In this document: positions 4,380-21,580 of the stretch, one piece after another
Position numbering within the stretch: position 1 is the first letter of the stretch
How the letters are laid out: each line of letters starts with the position of its first letter
Assembly: GCA_020832225.1 (NCBI GenBank)
Contig: JAFIFA010000047.1
Location: 1-33,372, forward strand
Direction: 5' to 3'
DNA: 33,372 nt
From: Balneolaceae bacterium
GTDB lineage: Bacteria; Bacteroidota; Rhodothermia; Balneolales; Balneolaceae
Notes under the pieces: model-generated
What the model was told of the DNA's origin: nothing
What the model saw: the letters and a program-made list of their open reading frames with translations, nothing else
Databases searched by the model: none
Made by a program: the position numbers and the translations under genes

Positions 4380-6194
4380 ATGACAGTTCAGCAACCACAC
4401 CAGTTTCACATCCCCGTTATGGGTACCGGCCACTCCATCGACAGCCCGATCCGGGTTGCCCATCTTGGCATCAGTTCCGTTATCTCCGTGGTGGACGACC
4501 TCTTATGCGAAAAAATCCGAAAGCACTATTCCAAGGAGTTTAACCTGCCATATAAGAATATTGCACGTTCCAGGGCAGATGGCCGGGCAGAACGAATAAC
4601 CGTCTACCTAAATACCGTTCAGAAGATTGTTGAGCAGAAGTTTGAGAGCTTGAAGGAGTGCTCCTTCTACAGCAATAGCGAGAAAGACCGCTACTTCAAA
4701 TTGCTTCCTAAATCTAATCCGTTGCGAAAACTGTATGATAAGCTCTCGACATTGAATGATGAGAGTGAACGTAAGAGGCTAACAGAACAGCTGACCAAGC
4801 TGATGAGACCCGGCGAAATCGAGGTCAACATCATGGCCAAAGTGGATGCGCTGAAACTCGACAGCGACGATCAGCCGATGAGTGCCGAATTCTCAGATGC
4901 GAGTGCTGCACTGCGGGGCTTTGCAAATAGCGACCTCACCTCAAGTGTGGTATTATCAGCAGGGTTTAACCCACGACTCTACAGCTACATCTCGGAGTTT
5001 AAGGATTTCTATCGCGATAGCGCCGGAGAGATCAAAAAGAAGGTTATTCTGAAAGTAAGCGATTTTCGATCCGCACTGATTCAGGGCAAATTTTTGGCCA
5101 AAAAGGGAATTGAAGTTGCCGAATTCCGAATTGAGTCCGGACTCAATTGCGGAGGTCACGCCTTTGCATCCGACGGACATCTTATGCCCGTACTTCTTCA
5201 GGAGTTCAGGGAGAAACGGTCTCAGCTTGTTGATACATTCAGCCCTCTAATCAAAAATTATTATGAATTGGAAGGCTTGGACTACCCAGAGCTCTCCGAT
5301 GAAGAGATATCACCAAAAATCACCGTTCAGGGAGGCATTGGAACCCATGGTGAAATGCGCCGGCTTCTCGACGATTTTGAGATGGATGGGACAGGGTGGG
5401 GGAGTCCGTTTCTGCTGGTGCCCGAAGCGACATGCGTGGATGATTTCACATCAAAACTGTTGGCCAGTGCCGCAGAGAAGGATCTCTATCTGAGTAACGT
5501 CTCTCCGCTCGGCGTTCCGTTCAACAACATTCGGGGATCGGGTTCTGAAATCCACACCCGGGAGCTGATTGAAAAGGAGAAGCCCGGATCCAAATGTCCG
5601 AAAGGATTCCTGGTCTCCAACACAGAATTTACTGATAACCCGATCTGTACCGCATCTGCACAGTATCAGCTTCTCAAGATCAATCAGATTCGGGAAAGTG
5701 AAACGCTAAGCGGTGAGGAGAAGAAGAACCAAACCGAACGGGTGATGGAGAAAACCTGTCTCTGCACCAATCTTGGAACGGGATCGCTGATACGTCTTGG
5801 TATCACAAAGCCCTCATACGGGCGTCAGGCTATCTGCCCCGGGCCCAACATCGTCTGGTTCACCAGGGAGTACTCTCTGGATGAGATGGTCGACCACATC
5901 TATGGGCGCAGGGAGTCGCTTGTGCCCGATGAGAGGCCACACATGTTTGCCAAAGAGCTGACCATGTATGTTGACTATCTTGAGGAACTGGCTGATCAGA
6001 TAGATGATGGTGACAAAGGCGGACAGAATAAGCTCCAAAAAATTCGGAAGAATCTGGAGTCGGGTATGGAACTCTGCCTCGAAATTTCAGACAGGGAGCC
6101 CTACACCGGGGAGAATATCGAGTCGCTGAGGGGAGCCGTTTTTACTCAGAGAGTGAGGTTATCCGCTATTTTCGAAGATTCCCTGGTTCCATAA
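4380..6194 (+). CDS. Conserved-looking Cys-rich protein of unknown function, possibly TIM-barrel-like
   Basis: 604-aa intact ORF starting MTVQQPHQFHIPVMGTGHSIDSPIRVAHLGISSV; blocks GLNCGGHAFASDGH, VQGGIGTHGEMRRLLDDFEMDGTGWGSPFLLVPEATCV, SKCPKGFLVSNTEFTDNPICTASAQYQ, KTCLCTNLGTGSL, AICPGPNIVWF. Confidence 0.75.
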   Translation: MTVQQPHQFHIPVMGTGHSIDSPIRVAHLGISSVISVVDDLLCEKIRKHYSKEFNLPYKNIARSRADGRAERITVYLNTVQKIVEQKFESLKECSFYSNSEKDRYFKLLPKSNPLRKLYDKLSTLNDESERKRLTEQLTKLMRPGEIEVNIMAKVDALKLDSDDQPMSAEFSDASAALRGFANSDLTSSVVLSAGFNPRLYSYISEFKDFYRDSAGEIKKKVILKVSDFRSALIQGKFLAKKGIEVAEFRIESGLNCGGHAFASDGHLMPVLLQEFREKRSQLVDTFSPLIKNYYELEGLDYPELSDEEISPKITVQGGIGTHGEMRRLLDDFEMDGTGWGSPFLLVPEATCVDDFTSKLLASAAEKDLYLSNVSPLGVPFNNIRGSGSEIHTRELIEKEKPGSKCPKGFLVSNTEFTDNPICTASAQYQLLKINQIRESETLSGEEKKNQTERVMEKTCLCTNLGTGSLIRLGITKPSYGRQAICPGPNIVWFTREYSLDEMVDHIYGRRESLVPDERPHMFAKELTMYVDYLEELADQIDDGDKGGQNKLQKIRKNLESGMELCLEISDREPYTGENIESLRGAVFTQRVRLSAIFEDSLVP

Positions 6195-6235: not shown

Positions 6236-6688
6236 TCAATCTGAAGAGATCTCCCCTCCCTTCCAAACAGCCTCTCCCTCATCATCAAAAAACTCTTTCT
6301 TCCAGATCGGCACATCCTGTTTGATCTGTTCAATGATTGCCAGAACCGCTTGGGTTGACTCCTTCCGGTGTGGCGTACTTACCGCCACAATCATCGATAC
6401 CTCTCCAACCGGCACCTCACCCGTTTTGTGAAAAATGGCCGCAGCTCCAAGAGGATACTCTTTCATTGCCCGATTCAGAATCACTTCGCACTGTGAAAGC
6501 GCCATCTCATCGTAGCTGTCGTAGCTAAGCAGAGTTACGCTTTTGCCGCTGTCGTGATTTCGGGTCACCCCTTCAAACAGGTTAACCGCTCCACAGTGAT
6601 CACGCCTCACAAACTTCGAAATCTCTTCAAGCGCCGGTAGTTCACCACCAATCTGGATCCAGATGTTTTCAGTTTTCTTGTGATGCAT
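6236..6688 (-). CDS. moaE: Molybdopterin synthase catalytic subunit MoaE
   Basis: GAVNLFEGVTRNHDSGKSVTLLSYDSYDEMA...HKTGEVPVGEVSMIVAVSTPHRKESTQAVLAIIEQIKQDVPIWKKEFFDDEG. ORF extends to 6787, but the first 33 codons read through a short tandem repeat; likely start is Met at 6688 (MHHKKTEN). Confidence 0.93.
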   Translation of the reverse strand: MHHKKTENIWIQIGGELPALEEISKFVRRDHCGAVNLFEGVTRNHDSGKSVTLLSYDSYDEMALSQCEVILNRAMKEYPLGAAAIFHKTGEVPVGEVSMIVAVSTPHRKESTQAVLAIIEQIKQDVPIWKKEFFDDEGEAVWKGGEISSD

Positions 6689-6734
6689 ATGAATTAATTT
6701 CGGACCAATTAAACTATTGGAGCGTTGATAAACC

Positions 6735-6774
6735 ATCTTCCACTCACCCTCTCTCCCATTCTCCCACTCCCAAA
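6735..6774. repeat. Degenerate octanucleotide tandem repeat (5 contiguous units) between moaA and moaE
   Basis: Plus strand: ATCTTCCA CTCACCCT CTCTCCCA TTCTCCCA CTCCCAAA; approximate consensus CTCTCCCA. Confidence 0.6.
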
Positions 6775-6776
6775 CT

Positions 6777-7742
6777 TCACCCACCAATCGTAACCATACT
6801 CCGATTCTCCTGCTTGGCGATGTTAAACCGCCCTGCGTGGCTCGGTTTTTTTTCGAGTATCACCTGGCGAATGATTGGCTCCGGATCTTCCCCGTTCCTC
6901 AGCGGAGTGAGCAGGTCCGTTTCGTCGGTGGAAAAGAGGCAGTTTTTCATAGCACCATTTGCAAGCAGCCTGATCCGGTTGCAGCTTCCGCAGAAATGCT
7001 CTGTCATGGAGCTGATAATCCCGAACTGTCCTGCAAAACCGGGCACCTGATAGTGCTTTGTTGTGTCGTGCGGGCCGTCGGTGAGTTTATCGAAATCAAA
7101 CTCCTCCCCGATCCGCTCCTTCATCTCCGCCAACGGCACCATTTTATCATCATCCCAGCGATTGCCGTCAAATGGCATAAACTCAATAAACCGGATGATG
7201 ATGGGCAAATCTTTGGTCCAGCGCACAAAATCGATCAGCTCATCCTCATTCATGTTGCGCATCACCACCACATTCACCTTCACCTCAAACCCCTCATCCA
7301 CAAGCAGTTTGATGTTCTTAATCACCTTCTCAAAGCCGGTGCGGCGGGTTATCATTGCGAACCGCTCGGGGATGAGTGTATCGAGGCTAACATTGATCTT
7401 GAGCAGGCCGTGATCCTTCAAATTCCGGATATGTCGGTCTATCAGTATGCCGTTGGTTGTCATCGAGAGCTCAACATCCCTGCCGGCAAGGTGCTCCAGA
7501 ATAGTATTGAAATCTTTTCGCACAAGCGGCTCACCGCCGGTCAGCCTCACTTTGACGACCCCCAGCTCAATAAAACGGTCGATAAGAGTCAGCAGCTCAT
7601 CCGTGGTGCAGAGCTCCTCCTTTGGGGTCCAGTCTGGATTTTCGGGCATGCAGTAGCGGCAGCGGAGGTTGCATTTCTCAATCAGGGAGACCCGCAGATA
7701 GTTGTGAATTCGGCCATGTTTGTCGATCAGGGGTTCATTCAT
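6777..7742 (-). CDS. moaA: GTP 3',8-cyclase MoaA (radical SAM)
   Basis: CNLRCRYC radical-SAM motif, LTGGEPLVRKDF, C-terminal cluster CGSCNRIRLLANGAMKNC, terminal ...TIGG. Likely start at 7742 (MNEPLIDKHGR), overlapping the moaD stop. Confidence 0.95.
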   Translation of the reverse strand: MNEPLIDKHGRIHNYLRVSLIEKCNLRCRYCMPENPDWTPKEELCTTDELLTLIDRFIELGVVKVRLTGGEPLVRKDFNTILEHLAGRDVELSMTTNGILIDRHIRNLKDHGLLKINVSLDTLIPERFAMITRRTGFEKVIKNIKLLVDEGFEVKVNVVVMRNMNEDELIDFVRWTKDLPIIIRFIEFMPFDGNRWDDDKMVPLAEMKERIGEEFDFDKLTDGPHDTTKHYQVPGFAGQFGIISSMTEHFCGSCNRIRLLANGAMKNCLFSTDETDLLTPLRNGEDPEPIIRQVILEKKPSHAGRFNIAKQENRSMVTIGG

Positions 7743-7743
7743 C

Positions 7744-8022
7744 TCATCCCCCTGATACCGGTGTGATAAAAGCCACTTCATCCCCATCATGAATAACAGT
7801 AAATGGTTCAACGTACGATTGATTAACCGCCAGCCTCACGTGTTTCTTCATTCGGTTCAGTTCATCAAACTCTTTGGCAAGTTGACTGATCAGCTCAGCA
7901 CCCGTAATACCGGATGGAAGCGTGATCGTTTCAGACCTGACCCCTCTCTTTTCAGCCAGCTGGCTGAACCATCTCAGCTCAGCTTCAATCGTCTTCAATT
8001 CCGCTTTTACAGCTCTGTCCAT
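7744..8022 (-). CDS. moaD: Molybdopterin synthase sulfur-carrier subunit MoaD
   Basis: 92 aa, ubiquitin-like, ends VAFITPVSGG (C-terminal GG); immediately upstream of moaA. Confidence 0.9.
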   Translation of the reverse strand: MDRAVKAELKTIEAELRWFSQLAEKRGVRSETITLPSGITGAELISQLAKEFDELNRMKKHVRLAVNQSYVEPFTVIHDGDEVAFITPVSGG

Positions 8023-8149
8023 CTTGCTACCTTAACTGTTGGTGAACCAATCTTTTAATACTTTATTCCAATGATGAAGATGTCAAAAGTTTGGTTGTTT
8101 GCAAAGCTCTGTCTCCAATCAACCTTTAACATGAATATCCCTTGCTGAG

Positions 8150-9055
8150 ATGATTAATATCTCCCACAAAAGAAATTCTCTACGCTACGCAAAAGCATCC
8201 GGCACCCTCTTTACCACAGAGGACGTGATCTCAAAAATCCGAAACGGAGAGATCCCGAAAGGAGATCTACTGGAGATTGCACGGGCAGCCGGTATACAGG
8301 CGGCCAAAAAGACGTCGGAGTGGATCGTGTTCTGCCACTCCATGCCGATCGACTGGGTGGGAATCAGCTACGAGTTTACGGATGAAAGTATGACGGTTAT
8401 TGCCGAGGTTGAAGCGGTCTGGAAAACCGGTGTGGAGATGGAGGCGGTTACGGCCGTTATGGGTACGCTTATGAACGCCTACGATATGCTCAAACCGCTC
8501 GATGCTCAAATTAAGATCGGCGAAATCACGCTGGTCGAGAAACGGGGCGGAAAATCGGACATGCGCGACACCTTTGATCCGCCAGTTAAAACCAGCCTGA
8601 TCAGCGTGGACAGCGACAAAAAAAAGGGACGCCAGGCTGACCGTTCTGCATCGGTAATTCTCGACTCACTCCGTAGCAAACCGGTTGAAGTGGTTTCTGA
8701 ACATCAGCTAAAGGAAGAGGAAGGGCAGGTTCGAAAGATGCTGGTGGACCTTACCGATAGCCGTGAGTGCGAGCTGATCTTTCTCTGTGGATCAACAGGG
8801 CCCGCCCCAAAAGATGTGGTTCCGAAGGTGATTCGCGAAATCTCTGACCGCGAAGTGCCCGGAATTGCCCACGCCATGCATCAGTATGGCCTTGAGCGCA
8901 CGCCTTTTGCCATGATCTCTGATCAGGTTGCAGGCATCAGAAACGGTGTGTTGATGGTTGCGCTGCCCGGCAGTGAACGCGGTGCCCGTGAGAGCATGGA
9001 CGCGCTCTTTCCCGGCCTGCTCCACATCTTCAAGACGCTTAGACGAACCCGATAA
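8150..9055 (+). CDS. moaCB: Bifunctional MoaC-MoaB fusion (molybdenum cofactor biosynthesis)
   Basis: N-terminal MoaC: KGDLLEIARAAGIQAAKKTSEWIVFCHSMPID...KTGVEMEAVTAVMGTLMNAYDMLK...KRGGKSD. C-terminal MoaB/MogA-like: LIFLCGSTGPAPKDVVPKV...VPGIAHAMHQYGLERTPFAMISDQVAGIRNGVLMVALPGSERGARESMDAL. Confidence 0.9.
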   Translation: MINISHKRNSLRYAKASGTLFTTEDVISKIRNGEIPKGDLLEIARAAGIQAAKKTSEWIVFCHSMPIDWVGISYEFTDESMTVIAEVEAVWKTGVEMEAVTAVMGTLMNAYDMLKPLDAQIKIGEITLVEKRGGKSDMRDTFDPPVKTSLISVDSDKKKGRQADRSASVILDSLRSKPVEVVSEHQLKEEEGQVRKMLVDLTDSRECELIFLCGSTGPAPKDVVPKVIREISDREVPGIAHAMHQYGLERTPFAMISDQVAGIRNGVLMVALPGSERGARESMDALFPGLLHIFKTLRRTR

Positions 9056-9070
9056 TAGTGAGGCTCTTTT

Positions 9071-10264
9071 TTAAGAGTTGATAATGCGCTTCCACGCTTC
9101 CATTCCGCCCTGCAAGTTGAACAGATTCTCTGCACCACTATCTATCAACCGCTGCACAACCTTCCCGCTTCGCCTGCCTGTGCGGCAGTAAAATAGAGAA
9201 GGACGCCCGTGCTCAGAGCAAAATGAGTCCGGATCGAGCTTTTCAACCGGAATCAGTTCACCTCCGATGTTGAATGCCCGATGCTCTTCGGGCGACCGGA
9301 CATCGATCAATCGTACACTCTCCCCTCGTTTCAGCTTCTCTGATAGCTCAGCGGGTGTGATTTCAGGTATTGACTCATCTGCTGATCCTGATCTGCAAAA
9401 GACTTCATAATCGATCAGCCCGGTAATCTTCGGGGTGGCTCCCGTTAACGGATTGTCATCCCTTTTGGATAGCCCTACATGGCGGCTCTCAAGGTGAAGT
9501 GCATCGAAAAGCAGCAGGCGTCCGTCGAGAAGCCCGTCAAGTCCTGCTATCCACTTTATCGTCTCCGCAGCCTGCATGGTGCCGATCATCGTGGGAAGGA
9601 CACCTAATACACCTGCATCAGCACAATCGGGGGCCAGTTCGGCTGGAGGAGGCTCGGGGAAGAGGTCGCGATAGTTGGGTCCTCGCACTCCATCTTCCCG
9701 GAGATGATTGAAAAGTGAGAGCTGTCCCTCAAAACGGTAGATCGATCCATACACAAATGGTTTACCGGAAAGTACGGAGGCATCATTGATCAGATAGCGC
9801 GTCGGAAAGTTATCGGTGCCGTCGATGATGATATCATAGCCGCCTATGATCTCCATACCGTTTTCAGAACTGAGATAGACCGGATGGGTTTCGATCTCAA
9901 CCTCGCTGTTACGCTCTCTAAGCCGCTCTGCAGCGGCTTCTGCTTTCAGTCGGCCAACATCACTCTCTCTGTAGAGCATCTGCCTGTGGAGGTTGCTCAG
10001 CTCTACCCGGTCACCATCCACAATTCCGATCCTGCCCACACCGGCTGCAGTGAGAGCGAGCAGCGCGGGGCACCCAAGTCCACCGGCACCCACAACCAGA
10101 ACGGAGGCCTGACTGAGCTTCTTCTGCCCTTTGGCACCAACTTCAGGCAGTGCAATTTGACGACTATAGCGTGGGTTCACAGCTTCAGCTTTATGGAGAT
10201 TGAGCCCGATCCTTGATGAAGGGGCGATTTTTTCTATCTTCAGCAAAAATAGGACGAATTTCAA
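9071..10264 (-). CDS. MoeB/ThiF-type adenylyltransferase fused to a C-terminal rhodanese domain (MoeZ-like)
   Basis: NPRYSRQIALPEVGAKGQKKLSQASVLVVGAGGLGCPALLALTAAGVGRIGIVDGDRVELSNLHRQ; C-terminal rhodanese VRLIDVRSPEEHRAFNIGG...LFYCRTGRRSGKVVQ. Listed start is TTG at 10264; GTG near 10180 (VNPRYSRQ) is more plausible. Confidence 0.92.
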   Translation of the reverse strand: MKFVLFLLKIEKIAPSSRIGLNLHKAEAVNPRYSRQIALPEVGAKGQKKLSQASVLVVGAGGLGCPALLALTAAGVGRIGIVDGDRVELSNLHRQMLYRESDVGRLKAEAAAERLRERNSEVEIETHPVYLSSENGMEIIGGYDIIIDGTDNFPTRYLINDASVLSGKPFVYGSIYRFEGQLSLFNHLREDGVRGPNYRDLFPEPPPAELAPDCADAGVLGVLPTMIGTMQAAETIKWIAGLDGLLDGRLLLFDALHLESRHVGLSKRDDNPLTGATPKITGLIDYEVFCRSGSADESIPEITPAELSEKLKRGESVRLIDVRSPEEHRAFNIGGELIPVEKLDPDSFCSEHGRPSLFYCRTGRRSGKVVQRLIDSGAENLFNLQGGMEAWKRIINS

Positions 10265-10282
10265 CCTAACCTACTTAAATCG

Positions 10283-10813
10283 ATGGAGACTGTTTCAATT
10301 GGAATTATCACCTTATCCGACCGCGCCAGCCGTGGTGAATATGACGATCTCTCGGGACCTGAAATCAGGAGATACTTCTCGGAAAGATTGAAAAACACGA
10401 TTGAGTGGCATTATGAAGTGATTCCGGATGAACCAGACAGGCTAAAAAGCCTTCTCACTGAGATGAGCGACAATCACATCGGACTGATCTGCACCACCGG
10501 CGGCACAGGTCCCGCACCCCGCGACATCACACCACAGGTCACCGAGGAGGTTTGTGACAAGATTCTTCCGGGCTTTGGGGAGGAGATGAGGCGGGTATCG
10601 CTTCAGGTAGTACCAACGGCGATCCTGTCGGCTCAGACGGCGGGAATCCGCAAGAAATCGCTGATCATCAACCTGCCCGGTAAACCCAAGGCGATTGCCG
10701 AATGCCTGGATGGCGTTTATGCAGCGATCCCCTACTGCCTCGACCTTATTGGCGCACCCCGCATGGAGTTCACCGCTAAAGGGAGTGACGCATTCAGGCC
10801 GAAGAAGAAATAG
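10283..10813 (+). CDS. mog: MogA/MoaB family molybdopterin adenylyltransferase
   Basis: IGIITLSDRASRGEYDDLSGPEIRRYF...LICTTGGTGPAPRDITPQVTEEVCDKILPGFGEEMR...AGIRKKSLIINLPGKPKAIAECL. Confidence 0.93.
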   Translation: METVSIGIITLSDRASRGEYDDLSGPEIRRYFSERLKNTIEWHYEVIPDEPDRLKSLLTEMSDNHIGLICTTGGTGPAPRDITPQVTEEVCDKILPGFGEEMRRVSLQVVPTAILSAQTAGIRKKSLIINLPGKPKAIAECLDGVYAAIPYCLDLIGAPRMEFTAKGSDAFRPKKK

Positions 10814-11619: not shown

Positions 11620-12957
11620 TCAGAACGAGATCTCTGCCTGCATCCAGAACTTTCGGGTATCGGGTAGTGCATTTATGCCCTGAAAGTTTGCAAACTTTAC
11701 CAGCAGGCTCAGGTGCTCGCTGACCTGCTTTCCAACCGAAGCCCCCGCCTCCCTGCCAAGAAGGTGGCCGGATTGATCTGAGTAAAACCAATGGTGATTA
11801 ATAGACGCCTCAGCGCCGCGAGGCAGGGAAATGTTCGCATAAAGCTTCAAATCCTGCAATCCTACTCCAGGTGTATTGAGAAAGAGATCAGCCCACCCCT
11901 GAAAGGCGTGAAGAGTGGCCAGCGGTGTCTGAAAGGAGGCAACGCCATCGTCACTCCCCAACACTTCCATTGACGCCCCAATTCGGCCGAGGCCTGTATC
12001 AGAAAGCCCCAAATCTACCAAGTAGTAGTTCGCATTGTAATCGAGCGGTGAGTTTCCTGCATCAGTTTGAATCGCAAACGATCCCGAGTAGTGGATCGCA
12101 TGGTCTGCGTTAAGGCTAAAACGCCCGTTAATTCGGAAACCTGCCGTTTGAGATGAGAGAACCGGGGCATTATCAAAATTGAGGTGGTAGAGAAACCCCG
12201 TCAAACGACTGCCGGGTATCAGGTTATCATACGTAAGGTGAGCCAGATGGCTGTCTGATTCGAAGATCCCCATTTGATGATCGGGTCCCTGAATGCGGTT
12301 TACCTGCCAAATGTAGTTGTACTCGAAGTGAAAAGAGTCAAGGCCCAAGGAGGTGGAGGCTGTAAATGCATCAAATGTCTGTTCATTTTGTCGCCATCCC
12401 ACATTTCCGACAAAGCGTGCGTTTTGATGGATAATCCGCTGCCTTCCGGTTCTCATCACTACCTCGCCGGTCTCACTACGAAACTCACCATAGAGTTGAT
12501 TCAGAACGGTCATTCGGGGATCGGGCACAACGGCACGCTCCGGTTGATTATTCAGCCCTGCCGCGTTGTAGCGCTCCGGTCCAATCGGTCGTACATCAAG
12601 AAAATCGACATATCCGGAAAAACCGTAGAGTGGCTGTGTTCTGTATCCAAGCCGGAGCCTGTTGGTAACGGCATGAGCGCTATCGAATCCGTCGGTGCTA
12701 ACTACTTCTGATCTGATTCTGTTGTTCAGGTCTACGCGTCCGCGGGTAAGTGCCTGCCAAAACCGTGACCGATTGGAAATGCTTCTATCAAGATCTGCAG
12801 CTGCCGTTAAGCCCACTCTGTTTTCCGTTGCGGAACTGTCACTATCGGCAGCAATAGTGGGGTTTGCCATCAGGCAGATCAGAAATACTGCCATGTAGAC
12901 CGACAGCAGCCATTTAATTTTTTGATAACACCGGACTCGATTCGGTTCAGTCATCAT
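11620..12957 (-). CDS. Outer-membrane beta-barrel protein resembling the alginate-export porin family
   Basis: Signal peptide (LLSVYMAVFLICLMANPTIAADS), RFWQALTRGRVDLNNRIRSEVV, alternating beta-strand pattern, VVMRTGRQRIIHQNARFVGNVGWRQNEQTFDA, C-terminal aromatic (QAEISF). Likely start at or near 12957, overlapping the upstream stop. Confidence 0.65.
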   Translation of the reverse strand: MMTEPNRVRCYQKIKWLLSVYMAVFLICLMANPTIAADSDSSATENRVGLTAAADLDRSISNRSRFWQALTRGRVDLNNRIRSEVVSTDGFDSAHAVTNRLRLGYRTQPLYGFSGYVDFLDVRPIGPERYNAAGLNNQPERAVVPDPRMTVLNQLYGEFRSETGEVVMRTGRQRIIHQNARFVGNVGWRQNEQTFDAFTASTSLGLDSFHFEYNYIWQVNRIQGPDHQMGIFESDSHLAHLTYDNLIPGSRLTGFLYHLNFDNAPVLSSQTAGFRINGRFSLNADHAIHYSGSFAIQTDAGNSPLDYNANYYLVDLGLSDTGLGRIGASMEVLGSDDGVASFQTPLATLHAFQGWADLFLNTPGVGLQDLKLYANISLPRGAEASINHHWFYSDQSGHLLGREAGASVGKQVSEHLSLLVKFANFQGINALPDTRKFWMQAEISF

Positions 12958-13180
12958 CCAATACTTTACGGGCACGGAGATCACGTATTACCGCATAGAT
13001 GTAGAGCACCACTCCTGCAAACATAATTGGCATTCCGAGAAATACCCCCAGCCCAACGCTCCAGGCCTGAAATCCGGCAATCAGAAACATCAGCACAAGT
13101 AACATACCGGCCATAGCGAGAAAAACGGCCGTTCGAACCAGCTTGTCCACATCACCCAATTGTTCATTCTCTTCACTCAT
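12947..13180 (-). CDS. Small two-TM membrane protein in the nap operon, unknown function
   Basis: ORF 12947..13210; likely start Met at 13180 (MSEENEQLGDVDKLVRTAVFLAMAGMLLVLMFLIAGF...). Overlaps neighbouring genes. Confidence 0.6.
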   Translation of the reverse strand: MSEENEQLGDVDKLVRTAVFLAMAGMLLVLMFLIAGFQAWSVGLGVFLGMPIMFAGVVLYIYAVIRDLRARKVLDDD

Positions 13181-14128
13181 TGAACTTCTCCATAAGTTTG
13201 GCCAGATCATCGGCGCTGATTTCCATTAGCTCCTGAGAGAATACATCCGGGTGACGGTCCGGCACATTCTCTCTTTCAGCAGGTGTTGGGTGTGCAGGTC
13301 CGTGGCAGGAGCTGCAGCTAACCTCATCGGCCCTCATCTTGTCAGAGAGCGCAATATGACTCGGCACGTCGTTGAACTTTTGGGTACCGCCGTGGCACGC
13401 CATGCAGTTTTGATTGGGGTAGCTACCTGAGAAGCTGATCGGCTCATCCCAGGTGCCGGTTACATAGAGCAGCCAGTGCCGGAAACCGTCCCGCTTCCCT
13501 TCAAAGGTACCGTGTGCACCATAGGTAGTGTGGTATAGCAGTGGTACTCCGAAATCCATCGGTTCTGATAGTGTTTAGCCGCCATGGTTGTGCTCTCTTC
13601 GTCGAAGAGATCATTTACGAAAGGATCCATAACATGACAGCTGGCGCAGGACTCCACGGTTTTTGTGGTTTCAAGCACTGTTGTACCTGTACTCAGAACC
13701 ACCACAACCGGCAGTGCAAACATCGAGACAATCATCAAACTTCGGTAGCTGAGGCGGCTGATGTTGTCTCTTCTGAAAAACTCGATATAGATAAGAATGA
13801 GTATGGCTGCAACTATAGAGAAAATTCCGGCACGCCGCATCAGCTCTCCAACGGTGACTCCCGAATCCGCTTCACTGGCAACACGAGGTGCCGGGTCGGA
13901 CTGAGCCGTTGCATAGAGTGGGATCACGTTTCCGTAAACGGTTGTACGGGTCTCCTCTGGTTCCATATTCACCCCGGCATGAATCTCCTCCAGGGACGGC
14001 TCATTGGGTTGAATGTCACCATCAACAACATAAACACCTATCAGGGCACTGGTTATACCGAATAGAACCAGCAGCGCAATTGAAGCCTGCAGAATCCAAT
14101 CCGGTCTTTTTGTTGGCTCTTTTTTCAT
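13173..14128 (-). pseudogene. NapC/NirT/NrfH-like multiheme cytochrome c, frameshifted (segments 13460..14185 and 13173..13559)
   Basis: Upstream frame carries TM segments, CASCH and AAKHYQNRWISEYHCYT; downstream frame continues HTTYGAHGTFEGKRDGF...CMACH...CSSCH. Frame change falls at about 13529-13537, inside the expected second heme motif. Likely start MKKEPTKR at 14128. Confidence 0.8.
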
Positions 14129-14157: not shown

Positions 14158-16497
14158 TTAAACTTTCTCGATTGTGACTGCACAACGCTTGTAATCCGGC
14201 TGACGAGAAAACGGATCTACCGCATCACTCGTAATCTTGTTAACCAGATGCTTGGCAGAGTGGAACGTCGCAAAGACGAGGCCCTCACGAATATCCCCGG
14301 TAATACGGGTTACAAAGTCGGCCTCGCCCCGGCGGCTTATCACTCGTACCTCGTCCCCTTCACTGAGTCCTGCAGCCTGTGCATCTGCGGGGTGAACTTC
14401 CAGAAAATCGGTACGCACACCCTGAAGGTCTTTAATCCCTCTGGTAATCGTCTCCGTATGCCAGTGCTCCAGTACTCGTCCGGTTGTGAGCGTCAACGGG
14501 TATTGATCATCCGTTGGCTCATAAGGAGGATCCTGTTCATGCAGGTAGATAATCGCCCTTCCGTCGGGTCTGGCGTAGAAATCGAGGCGTGCATCTTCAT
14601 TACGCTCCATAGGGTCCGATCCCGGCACAAAACGTCTGCAGGTTCCGGGATGGTCTTCATCGGGGCATGGCCACAAGATCCCGGGCTGGCTTTTAAGTCG
14701 TTCGTAGGTGATTCCTTCAAAATTGTAGTACGATTGGCCTGAAATCTTTCGCCACTCGTTCCAGATATCTTCCTGGGTTCGGTTGGGGAAGAGTTCAGAG
14801 TGCCCTAAGCGATCGGCCAGGTTGATCAGGATATCAAAATCGCTGCGCGCTTCGCCCGGCGGATCGGTAAGTTTTGGAACATAGTGGTAGCGGCGTTCCG
14901 GCTGACTAAAGACACCGCTCTTCTCAACCCACATCGCTGCCGGAAGCACAACATCGGCATACTTTGTGGTCTCAGTAGGGTGGAAAGCGTCTGCTACAAC
15001 CACAAACGTGCGTTCCATTGCTTCCCGGTAAGGCAGGATATTAGGGAGTGAGTGAATTGGATTGGTCGACATGATCAGCGCACACTCCACATCACCCTCA
15101 TACATCGCCTGAAACAAGGCCATTGTGTGATATCCGGGATTTGGACTAATCGTGCCCTCAGGTACATTCCAGAGCTCCTCAACCTCACGCCGGTGTTCGG
15201 GATTTGCCACCACTCTTCCCGTTGGCAGGGCGTGTGCCAAGGCTCCTGTATCACGGATTCCGCCACCCGCATTGGGTTGTCCGGTTAGTGAAAAGGGAGT
15301 GGCTCCCGGCCTTCCAATCTGCCCAGTAAGCAGGTGCATCGCCATCATCAGCCGGTTTGAAGCGGTTCCCTGCGTCTGCTGGTTAAGGCCCATGGTCCAG
15401 AACGACATGGTAGCGGGTGAGCTTCCAAAGCGAAATGCTGCCTCCCGTATCTGTTCGGGCGAAACCCCACACGTTGCAGCTGCTCGTTCCGGCTTATAGT
15501 TCTCCAGGTTTTCCCGGAATTGGTCCAGTGATATTCGGTCTGATCCCTGCTGAAACCTTAGATACTCTTCAACCATCTCATCATCAATCATTCCGCGCCG
15601 GAAAAACTCGTATATCATCGAATTATAGAGCGATACATCGGTACCCGGGCGGATCTGCAGATGCAGGTCGGCACGCTTCGCCGTGTTGGTTTTTCGCGGA
15701 TCCACGACAATGATAAATGTATCGGGATTGGTTCGCTTTCGGTCTCTGACGCGCTCCCAAACTATTGGGTGGCAATCTGCCATGTTGGATCCGGTAATAA
15801 TGAAACAGTCGGCATGGTCGGTATCCTCATAGCAGCTCATCGGCTCATCTACAACAAAAACAATGGTGTAGCCAACGGCTGCTGATGCCATGCAGAGGCG
15901 TGGGTTTCCATCCACATTATTTGTGCCTATTCCCGCTTTGAAGAGTTTGTTTGCGGTGTAGCTCTCTTCGGTGAAAAGCTGTCCGCTGCCGCAGTAGGCA
16001 ACACTATCCGGCCCCTTATCGGCAATGGCCGTGTTGAACCTTCTTGCAATCAACTCCATCGCCTCCTCCCAGCTGGCCCGCTCCAACTCGCCATTTTTAC
16101 GAATCAGCGGATAGTGCAGCTGGTCTTAGGCGTAAAGAATCTCACGGTTTAGTATCCCCTTGATGCAGAGACGGCCGCGATTATGGGCGTCGGGATCACC
16201 TTTTACGTCAACAACCTGACCGTTATTCATGCCGATCAGCATACCGCAGCCGGTACCGCAAAATCTACAGACACCGCGATACCAGCTATCCACGTCAATT
16301 ACATACTGACGCTCCCAAAGTTCACCACACCCCGCCATCAACGAACCGGTAAAGACACCGGCGGCAGAAAGGGAGGCCAATCGCATAAGCTCCCGGCGCG
16401 ACAGCCCCTTGTACTCTTCGGAAGGATCATCCGGTGATGAGCCTCTCCCCTTTTCCCCTATACCATTAAAATTTGAGCGATCTTTATCTTCTCTCAT
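14158..16497 (-). pseudogene. napA: Periplasmic nitrate reductase catalytic subunit NapA interrupted by an in-frame TAA (16126-16128)
   Basis: N-terminal piece 16126..16497: Tat-like SRRELMR, [4Fe-4S] CRFCGTGCGMLIGMNNGQVVDVKGDPDAHNRGRLC. C-terminal piece in the same frame: DQLHYPLIRKNGELERASWEEA..., Mo-ligand region NPRLCMASAAVGY, DEPMSCYEDTDHADCFIITGSNMADCHPI, C-terminal TTGRVLEHWHTETITRG. Confidence 0.88.
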
Positions 16498-16698: not shown

Positions 16699-17895
16699 AT
16701 GAAAAACAGAGAGTATATTTCTGTTGATGACGCTCTCAAAATCATCCGTTCAGAATCCAGACCTCACAGTAAATCTGAATCGGTTCCGGTTAAGGAGTCA
16801 CTAAGCCGGGTACTGGCCGAAGAGTTACCGGCTCAACGCGATGTGCCCCGATTTGACAACTCCGCCATGGATGGGTTTCTGTTTCTACACAGCGATCTTA
16901 AAAGCGGGGTTCGAAGTTTTTCCATCATGGGTGAAATCCGACCGGAGAACAACAACCCCAAGACCCTTAAAGCAGGCTCCTGCAGCCGTATCATGACCGG
17001 AGCAGCCGTGCCTGAAGGCGACTACTTCGTGGTTCCTGTAGAGCTGACCAAAGAGGATGGGGACACAGTTACGGTTCAGGAGCTACCCTCGAGAAATCCG
17101 ATTCGAAGAAAGGGGGAAGGATATGCCGTAGGTCGCCCCGTTCTGCAGAAAGGAACTGTGATCACCCCTTATGAACTGGGATTGATGATCGAGTCCGGAA
17201 ATAAAAAATGCCCGGTTCTGAAAGAGCTAAAGGTTGCCATACAGGTAACGGGATCTGAGATTGATGAGGACCTCAACTCCAACGGTCCGGTTCTGAAGGG
17301 CCTGCTCTCACAATGGCCTGGGCTATCAATCACCGAGCTGCCTGTTTTGGAAGATGACCCTCAGGTGGTGAGCAATCGCCTGAAAGAGCTACGTGACAAC
17401 TATGACATCGTACTGACAACGGGCGGCATCTCTATGGGTCGCCACGACTATATCCTGCAGGAGATGCAGAACCTTGGAGCAGAAGTGTTGATTCGTAAAA
17501 TCAGGCAGAAACCGGGAAAACCCTTCACCATGACCCGTCTCGGTGATACTCTCTTTTTTCACCTTCCGGGCAATCCCGTTTCAGCCATTTTTACGGCTGA
17601 ATATTATGTTCGAAAAGCCATTTACAACATGTTGGGTCTGCCGCAGCGTGAACGAAAGCTCCGATCAGCCAACTCACTGAGCAATCACCGTGGCGAAAAG
17701 ACCCTCTTTATCACTGGCTCGCTTCAAGTCGATTCCAACTATAACGTTTCAGTGAAAAGTGACGGCGTGATGAAGTCGCACCTGATGCAGCTCTATCGTG
17801 GTTGTGATCTCTACATTCGCATCGACCCCGAAACGGAGGTCAGTCCCGGCGAACCCGTAGAGGTAATACCGTTTTCCACAACCGGCAAGCTATGA
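16699..17895 (+). CDS. moeA: Molybdopterin molybdenumtransferase MoeA
   Basis: PRFDNSAMDGFLF, SRIMTGAAVPEGD, VQVTGSEIDED-type region, DIVLTTGGISMGRHDYI, FHLPGNPVSAIFTAEYYV. Confidence 0.95.
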   Translation: MKNREYISVDDALKIIRSESRPHSKSESVPVKESLSRVLAEELPAQRDVPRFDNSAMDGFLFLHSDLKSGVRSFSIMGEIRPENNNPKTLKAGSCSRIMTGAAVPEGDYFVVPVELTKEDGDTVTVQELPSRNPIRRKGEGYAVGRPVLQKGTVITPYELGLMIESGNKKCPVLKELKVAIQVTGSEIDEDLNSNGPVLKGLLSQWPGLSITELPVLEDDPQVVSNRLKELRDNYDIVLTTGGISMGRHDYILQEMQNLGAEVLIRKIRQKPGKPFTMTRLGDTLFFHLPGNPVSAIFTAEYYVRKAIYNMLGLPQRERKLRSANSLSNHRGEKTLFITGSLQVDSNYNVSVKSDGVMKSHLMQLYRGCDLYIRIDPETEVSPGEPVEVIPFSTTGKL

Positions 17896-18473
17896 AATCA
17901 TCAAGGAGGCTCTACATCTTTTGCGGGGGTGGATCCCGACGAATGGGGCGCGATAAGGCACTGCTGGAGCTGAATGGCGAGACCCTGCTGAGCCGTCAGG
18001 TTCGCAGAACTGCGCCTCTGTTTGCGGAGATTGTTCTACTGGCGGGCGGCAACAGTTACGATCTTCCCAATCGTACAGTACAGGACACTATCCCCAATGC
18101 CGGTCCGCTTGCCGGACTTTTAGCTGCCCTCGATGACCAAAAGAGTGCGGATACCGTTGCCGTACTGCCGGTCGACATCCCCAATCTCACCGATTCGACG
18201 CTGCAATTGCTCTCTGAAACCAATTTAACCCCGGATTTGGATGCACTCACGCTTCAAAATGATGAAACCGTTCAGCCCCTTGCCGGGATCTACACTACTG
18301 CGTTGGCTCAGCCACTGCGCCACTATCTTGAAGATGGCCAGCGGATGGTGATGAAGTTCCTGGGGTCGATCCGCAGCGGCTCGATTGAGGTCACCGAGGA
18401 TCAACTGATCAACATCAACTATCCCGATGATTACGGGAAGATTCGGGATCGTGTGGATTCAAACCAAACATAG
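17892..18473 (+). CDS. mobA: Molybdenum cofactor guanylyltransferase MobA
   Basis: LYIFCGGGSRRMGRDKALLELNGETLLSRQ nucleotidyltransferase motif; NAGPLAGLLAAL; VLPVDIPNLT; ATGA overlap with moeA. Confidence 0.9.
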   Translation: MKSSRRLYIFCGGGSRRMGRDKALLELNGETLLSRQVRRTAPLFAEIVLLAGGNSYDLPNRTVQDTIPNAGPLAGLLAALDDQKSADTVAVLPVDIPNLTDSTLQLLSETNLTPDLDALTLQNDETVQPLAGIYTTALAQPLRHYLEDGQRMVMKFLGSIRSGSIEVTEDQLININYPDDYGKIRDRVDSNQT

Positions 18474-19657: not shown

Positions 19658-20089
19658 TCAGAAAAGCAGGTTTACCGATTGTGGCCGATGCAGTAGCCAG
19701 CCGGTGAGGCTATAGCGCGGAACGTTGGTTGTAAGCACCTCATGTTCGACGCTGTCGCTGCGGAAGAGCAGTAGCCGGCGCGCTATTGGTTCAATTAAAA
19801 TATCGCCCTCCTTTCGGTAGATCTTGAGCTCGCCGCCGTCACCCGGTTTCCAGTATTCGTTGAGGTAGAGAAGTACCGTTATCTGTTGGTTGGACCGCTC
19901 ATGAAACTGATCGAGATGTTTATCATAGTGCGATCCTTTTGGGTATTTGGCGATATGAAATTCGGAACCGGAAAGACTCAGGTAGCAGAATCGTCTCAGG
20001 TTCGCCATCAGTTCATCCATCACCGCGGAAAATGGTACCATCTCCAAATCAACGTATCGGTCCAGCCAATAGATAAAATCGCCCCTCAC
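19658..20089 (-). CDS. 2OG-Fe(II) oxygenase (prolyl 4-hydroxylase-like), apparently N-terminally truncated
   Basis: HYDKHLDQF (HxD), DSVEHEV (distal His), PRYSLTGWLLHR (2OG Arg); begins in frame at GTG with VRGDFIYWLDRY, a block normally found well inside this family. Confidence 0.75.
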   Translation of the reverse strand: MRGDFIYWLDRYVDLEMVPFSAVMDELMANLRRFCYLSLSGSEFHIAKYPKGSHYDKHLDQFHERSNQQITVLLYLNEYWKPGDGGELKIYRKEGDILIEPIARRLLLFRSDSVEHEVLTTNVPRYSLTGWLLHRPQSVNLLF

Positions 20090-20131
20090 TTCAGACTGGA
20101 TCGGAAAATTATTTTTTTCAGACTGTTCGAC

Positions 20132-20515: not shown

Positions 20516-20680
20516 TTTCCGGTTGGCTGCTTAAAATAGGAACTACTTTTGAATTAGATGTTAATTGTTAGCGGAAAGTGCGTTTAAAATCCAGGTTAAT
20601 TGATGGATCCAAAAAGAGACCTTTCCAATCCCGTCCTTTTTTATCAAATTGGAGCTCACACTTCACCCAATCCTGAGGTT

Positions 20681-21580
20681 ATGAGACCGATCTCCATTAC
20701 TCTTACATCCCTTCTGATCAGCCTGCTTTTTCTTAATTTAGCTTATGCACAAGAATCTGAACTTGTAGGTGAACCGGAGTTGATTGCAGATGGATTTCAG
20801 TTTACAGAAGGCCCTTACTGGCATCCGGACGGATTCCTGATCTTCAGCGACATACCGGCAAGTATTATCTACAAATGGTCGCCGGAATCGGGTGAGACTG
20901 AAAGCTGGATAGAGCCGAGCGGCAACTCAAACGGCATCTCTGCCAGACCTGATGGCACAATGCTGGTTGCCCAGCATGCGGGACGGGTATCAGAGATCGA
21001 TGAAAATCGAGAACTGGTGCCAATTGCTGAGGAGTTTGACGGTAAAAGGCTCAATAGTCCAAATGATATCGCGGTGCGCTCTGATGGGCTGATCTACTTC
21101 ACGGACCCTCCGTTTGGCGTTTCCGATGATGACCGCGAACTGGATATCAGCGGCGTGTTTCGAATTGATTCTGATGGATCCATTACTCTTGTATATTATG
21201 TTTTTAACCTGCCCAACGCACACGTTTTTACACCCGATTAGCAACATTTCTACATTAACGACTCTGAAACAGGTGACATCCTGCGCTTTGAAGTAGAGGA
21301 GAACGGCGATCTGGTAAATCCAATGGTCTTCGCCAATGTAGGACCGATGGGCGACTTAGGTGGCGCCGACGGAATGGTAACCGATAGCGATGGAAACCTC
21401 TATACCACGGGTCCAAACGGTTTTATCGTCTTTGATCCGGAGGGAAACCGCATCCACCAAATTCGTTTCGATCATCAGATTACCAATATGACCTGGGGTG
21501 GCGAGGATCACAGCGACCTCTACATTACCGCGCCGGACCGTCTATATCGACTGCCTACTTCTGCCGAGGGTTGGTACTAA
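20681..21580 (+). pseudogene. SMP-30/gluconolactonase/LRE-like family protein interrupted by an in-frame TAG (21239-21241)
   Basis: Signal peptide MRPISITLTSLLISLLFLNLAYAQ; GPYWHPDGFLIFSDIPASIIYKW, RLNSPNDIAVRSDGLIYFTDPPFGV, LPNAHVFTPD*QHFYINDSETGDILRFEVEENGDLV..., then the annotated ORF 21323..21580 in the same frame. Confidence 0.85.

Follow-up and report, generated by a model that had tools for sequence, protein, structure and literature searches.

The window analysed here is the entire contig (C200, 33,372 nucleotides) of a draft genome (G000) of 3.37 Mb, which consists of 231 contigs and is 96.5% complete. The closest named relatives that the public collection offers are Balneolaceae assembled from metagenomes, whose sample names give the impression of a soda-lake origin. 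The minus strand of the window carries a gene for a NapA-like molybdoenzyme, a tetraheme cytochrome gene and a gene for a small membrane protein, and molybdenum-cofactor genes flank them (Table 1). In relatives from the genus, family and class, wherever the available locus is of sufficient length, the tetraheme gene is located directly 3' of the napA-like gene. Such a locus would specify an ordinary NapA-like molybdoenzyme together with its four-heme partner, a membrane-anchored member of the NapC/NrfH superfamily. Product names in the first cofactor cluster were assigned partly by sequence resemblance, while that of MoaA was confirmed by PF06463.

Table 1. Position and state of the features discussed, numbered from the first base of the window.
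Feature	Position	Strand	Remarks
moaE, moaA, moaD, moaCB-like, moeB-like and mog-like genes	6236-10813		Molybdenum-cofactor genes; every frame open
Small membrane protein gene, 87 aa	12947-13210	-	Downstream of the cytochrome gene; conserved with the module; intact
Tetraheme NapC/NirT/NrfH-superfamily cytochrome gene, interrupted	13173-14128	-	Start (ATG) at 14128, placed from relatives; natural stop 13173-13175
C-terminal fragment with hemes 3 and 4 (CMACH, CSSCH)	13173-13532	-	46 of 47 invariant columns kept
N-terminal fragment with membrane segments (by eye) and heme 1 (CASCHVM)	13460-14128	-	Ends at an out-of-frame stop
Missing four bases; heme-2 motif lost and frame changed	13532-13535, between about 13533 and 13534	-	DNA alignment; present in all aligned relatives
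NapA-like molybdopterin oxidoreductase gene, interrupted by a stop	14158-16497	-	4Fe-4S, molybdopterin and dinucleotide-binding domains
In-frame TAA, codon 124 of the NapA-like gene	16126-16128	-	Nine relatives have D, E or R
moeA-like and mobA-like genes	16699-18473	+	Open; full-length relatives
SMP-30/gluconolactonase-like gene, in-frame TAG at 21239-21241	20600-21580	+	Odd substitutions cluster at codons 202-217; unrelated to the module

Several other features of the region were recorded. The plus strand at 4380-6194 encodes a conserved 604-aa protein, 73% identical to an open reading frame of locus L146 (G023), for which no Pfam family was found at E 0.01. The window's outer-membrane protein gene (11620-12984) has a counterpart in a relative (L008 9970-10939, G020) that is split in two, about 145 residues being absent between the parts. 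A 2OG-Fe(II) oxygenase encoded on the minus strand at 19658-20107, directly adjoining a ferredoxin-like gene, is without about 60 N-terminal residues that are present in its best relative (L134) and is possibly truncated.

Read directly, the coding strand at the break in the cytochrome gene is GAG TAC CAC TGC TAT ACC ACA CTA CCT ATG. The sole heme motif of the upstream frame (from 14128 or 14185 to the stop at 13462-13460) is CASCH, those of the downstream frame are CMACH and CSSCH, and a motif for the second heme is absent from every frame of the cytochrome stretch. As written, the gene does not give four CxxCH motifs in one polypeptide; it gives three motifs in two frames. In the DNA alignment, four columns inside the codons of CYTCH are gapped in the window and filled in all four relatives, the boundary of the gap being ambiguous by a base or two. 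The heme-2 motif (CYTCH, CYACH or CFTCH) is present in 14 of 14 homologous loci inspected across the genus, family, class and phylum, a set that includes some near-duplicates (L039 and L040 are near-identical). By simple pattern, 12 of these 14 loci have four CxxCH in one polypeptide, and the distant L031 and L032 give three. The break can be taken to lie far beyond chance, because the two flanks meet at a single point and each aligns to the full-length genus relatives, at about 58-76% protein identity. A profile search of 396 genomes of the phylum found the window only as two pieces, covering profile positions 7-197 and 198-316 and meeting at 13529-13532.

These results bear out the initial annotation in placing a frameshift at heme 2 (about 13533/13534), in attributing both the change of frame and the loss of the motif to a single absence of exactly four bases, and in expecting the motif to be kept at this site in homologues. 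Its description of the gene as a four-heme NapC-like protein holds at the superfamily level. It had also read the absence as a deletion. The bases are indeed missing where relatives have the motif, but a biological deletion is not established, given the ribF break in the same assembly and the odd substitutions near the other lesions. Nor was the cytochrome lesion the whole account, since the partner NapA-like gene upstream has an in-frame stop of its own that also disables the module.

Judged from its relatives, the intact gene would encode a four-heme protein with a membrane anchor, a member of the NapC/NirT/NrfH superfamily whose assignment to NapC or NrfH proper is not established. PF03264 (NapC/NirT) scored above its curated cut-off in the intact relative L008 (30.8 versus 24.1 bits), with the best stretch covering only positions 7-84 of 174. 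A search of solved structures with the tetraheme profile gave no match. In intact relatives, heme 1 of the tetraheme protein would accept electrons from menaquinol, and the chain of hemes would relay them to the molybdoenzyme.

The stop in the NapA-like gene is followed two codons later by R126Q. A second group of changes, G215V, K216V, G221S and F233I, lies around the DEPMGC stretch at sites that are invariant in nine other NapA-like proteins. Selenocysteine at the stop was considered and rejected: the codon is TAA, its relatives have D, E or R there, and the window protein retains the Cys of RLCMAS, which we take to be the active-site cysteine. The NapA-like protein is nearest, at 88.6%, to that of L037 (G257) from another genus of the family, and 82-85% identical to those of its own genus; this order of identities hints at a possible transfer of the module. 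In the SMP-30 gene, the third that is interrupted in the window, twelve close homologues of the same genus are open through the stretch containing the stop. Two of the reported SMP-30 matches do contain stops, in the stretch to which the search had extended each match.

Changes unique to the window at conserved sites form clusters near the stops, in NapA at codons 124/126 and 215/216/221/233 (P about 0.01) and in SMP-30 at 207/208/214/217 (P about 0.005), both values assuming uniform placement and being optimistic since the windows were picked post hoc. Outside the clusters, pN/pS of the NapA-like and tetraheme genes is similar to that between intact relatives. In a relaxed-selection test, of 402 columns that do not vary among the other copies, nine are changed in the window; the corresponding count for intact copies is 1-15, and the changes of the window are more radical and clustered. 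No patches of odd residues were noticed by eye in the intact window genes inspected (mog, moeA, ferredoxin-like, the 87-aa gene and part of an M14 peptidase). The pattern is unlike that of neutral decay with an even spread. Low-quality patches of a consensus are expected to give clustered substitutions.

Eight of the 28 genomes of the genus have moaA, seven of them with an identified molybdoenzyme. In four (G000, G016, G019 and G020) this is the present module, while G005 and G007 (strong PF00384 match) and G015 (PF02738) have another; the eighth genome is G017, which the PF02738 test left out. Searches of G000 with PF00174 and PF02738 revealed no other molybdoenzymes. Apart from the NapA-like gene, PF00384 matched a 586-aa frame on contig C62 that has a counterpart in nearly every genome of the genus and is probably NuoG-like. 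The NapA-like protein is thus the only full-length molybdoenzyme found in G000, and all of the cofactor genes are open. With the sole client found being broken and its cofactor pathway open, the loss must be either very recent or not real.

Breaks in other parts of the assembly were surveyed over about 0.81 Mb of G000, for comparison with 1.2 Mb of the relative G023 and smaller loci of others. Among about 139 comparable genes outside the window, ribF was clearly broken and one transposase had a late stop; DUF423, also a candidate, merely reads through beyond its natural end. The density of breaks is therefore 3 in 22 genes in the window, a count made up of the homologue table plus the three broken genes, versus 1-2 in 139 elsewhere (Fisher p about 0.01-0.02). 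No stops were found among the listed matches to ABC-transporter domains in G000. In ribF (L099 9151-10103, contig C120), one base is missing in a GGG context and the downstream frame is conserved. This gene is essential in most bacteria. Its frameshift is likely to be a consensus error, because it is the sole flavokinase match in G000, its downstream frame is conserved and the gene is presumably essential.

We slightly favour an error of the draft consensus over recent real inactivation as the origin of the lesions, a preference held with little more than even confidence. The missing bases of the cytochrome gene and the stop in NapA would then be artefacts, and the living cell would probably have intact genes. 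In a draft of 231 contigs with a frameshift in single-copy ribF, at least one consensus error is likely. Spurious stops and frameshifts are a known consequence of low coverage and of the choice of assembler (PMC11017572). A consensus error would also agree with the clustering of unique substitutions in NapA and SMP-30, with the unremarkable pN/pS of the remaining NapA-like and tetraheme sequence, and with cofactor genes that are open although their only full-length client is interrupted. It is harder to reconcile with the occurrence of two of the three lesions within one operon, the lower frequency of breaks in the rest of the assembly, the lack of stops in the listed ABC-transporter matches and of odd patches in the intact genes viewed, and a change of four bases that is not in a homopolymer. 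An absence of four bases and two nonsense substitutions are not among the commonest types of short-read error. The rival to which we give serious weight, though somewhat less than an even chance, is a very recent pseudogenisation, in which the lineage lost periplasmic nitrate (or similar) reduction and acquired the mutations after selection ceased, the cofactor genes being still undecayed. A lesion in each of two neighbouring genes of the module, accompanied by the radical NapA substitutions G215V, K216V and G221S, is what such a loss would leave, and the excess of breaks in the window over the rest of the genome points the same way. The module is, moreover, scattered over the genus, occurring in 4 of 28 genomes with G000 included, so that loss or transfer is common; searches of G000 gave no second full-length copy of either gene as a back-up; and NrfA (PF02335) had no match in G000, G016 or G019, while the module-bearing G020 has one, on another contig. 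However, by a rough estimate, relaxation long enough to produce the NapA substitutions should have struck the cofactor genes too, the substitutions beside the lesions are clustered rather than spread, and the unrelated SMP-30 gene on the same contig is broken in a similar style.

Two further explanations carry little weight. A population mixture, in which broken and intact alleles occur among strains and the consensus picked or mixed them, is improbable: the neighbours are metagenome-assembled genomes, and the joining of divergent reads could cluster substitutions, but the collections searched showed neither a second allele nor a second genome of the same species, and nothing from the same population was found among viral contigs. 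A functional variant, with a three-heme or frame-switched product made by the cell and put to use, is scarcely credible, even though the C-terminal fragment is well conserved. Heme 2 is kept in all of the homologous loci, no slippery heptamer is evident by eye at the site, the reductase upstream has its own stop, and the C-terminal fragment by itself has neither heme 1 nor the membrane part. Programmed frameshifting as a form of recoding was rejected for the same gene, as a switch of frame cannot restore the cysteine pair of heme 2, the second Cys codon of which is missing.

At face value, no complete NapA-like or tetraheme protein can be produced, and an annotator would conclude that the organism cannot use the only NapA-like reductase it has. 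That conclusion would be wrong were the breaks errors of the consensus. It is tempting to see meaning in a lesion that takes out exactly one functional motif, yet the same assembly also frameshifts the presumably essential ribF, which calls for caution. If the lesions are true, the stranded cofactor cluster would neatly illustrate an early stage in the loss of a pathway. It is conceivable, although we rather doubt it, that a periplasmic molybdoenzyme respiration module has just died in one lineage, its reductase and quinol dehydrogenase being broken and the cofactor pathway, for which no other client was found in the genome, still intact. Whether error or real loss, the phenomenon is an ordinary one, of little significance beyond annotation.

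Among known proteins, the tetraheme cytochrome most resembles, of the NCBIfam models, NrfH, the small subunit of cytochrome c nitrite reductase (TIGR03153). The alignment extends over the heme domain, intact relatives have four CxxCH, and the first motif takes the form CxxCHxM, described in NrfH for the heme that interacts with menaquinol (PMC8840924). However, the score of 45.4 bits falls below the equivalog cut-off of 134.2, the protein has extra N-terminal membrane segments (about 315 aa versus 138 model positions), and its partner is a NapA-like molybdoenzyme, in a genome without NrfA. Likeness to NapC/NirT (TIGR02161, PF03264) comes from the PF03264 score of L008 and the adjacent napA-like gene, while the Met after the heme-1 motif is as in NrfH and TIGR02161 scores 28 bits, far short of its cut-off of 310.6, with the profile covered in part. 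For the reductase, TIGR01706 and NF010055 (NapA) are the top-scoring NCBIfam families both for the intact L037 protein and for the window pieces, but L037 reaches 606.8 and 627.4 bits, below the equivalog cut-offs of 930.6 and 904. These proteins are also close to FdhA and NasC, nitrate is at most a putative substrate, and the window copy differs further in its in-frame stop. As for the lesions themselves, they share with the spurious pseudogenes of draft genomes (Cooley and Wright 2024, PMC11017572) the occurrence of stops and frameshifts, in a fragmented draft, in genes otherwise under purifying selection.
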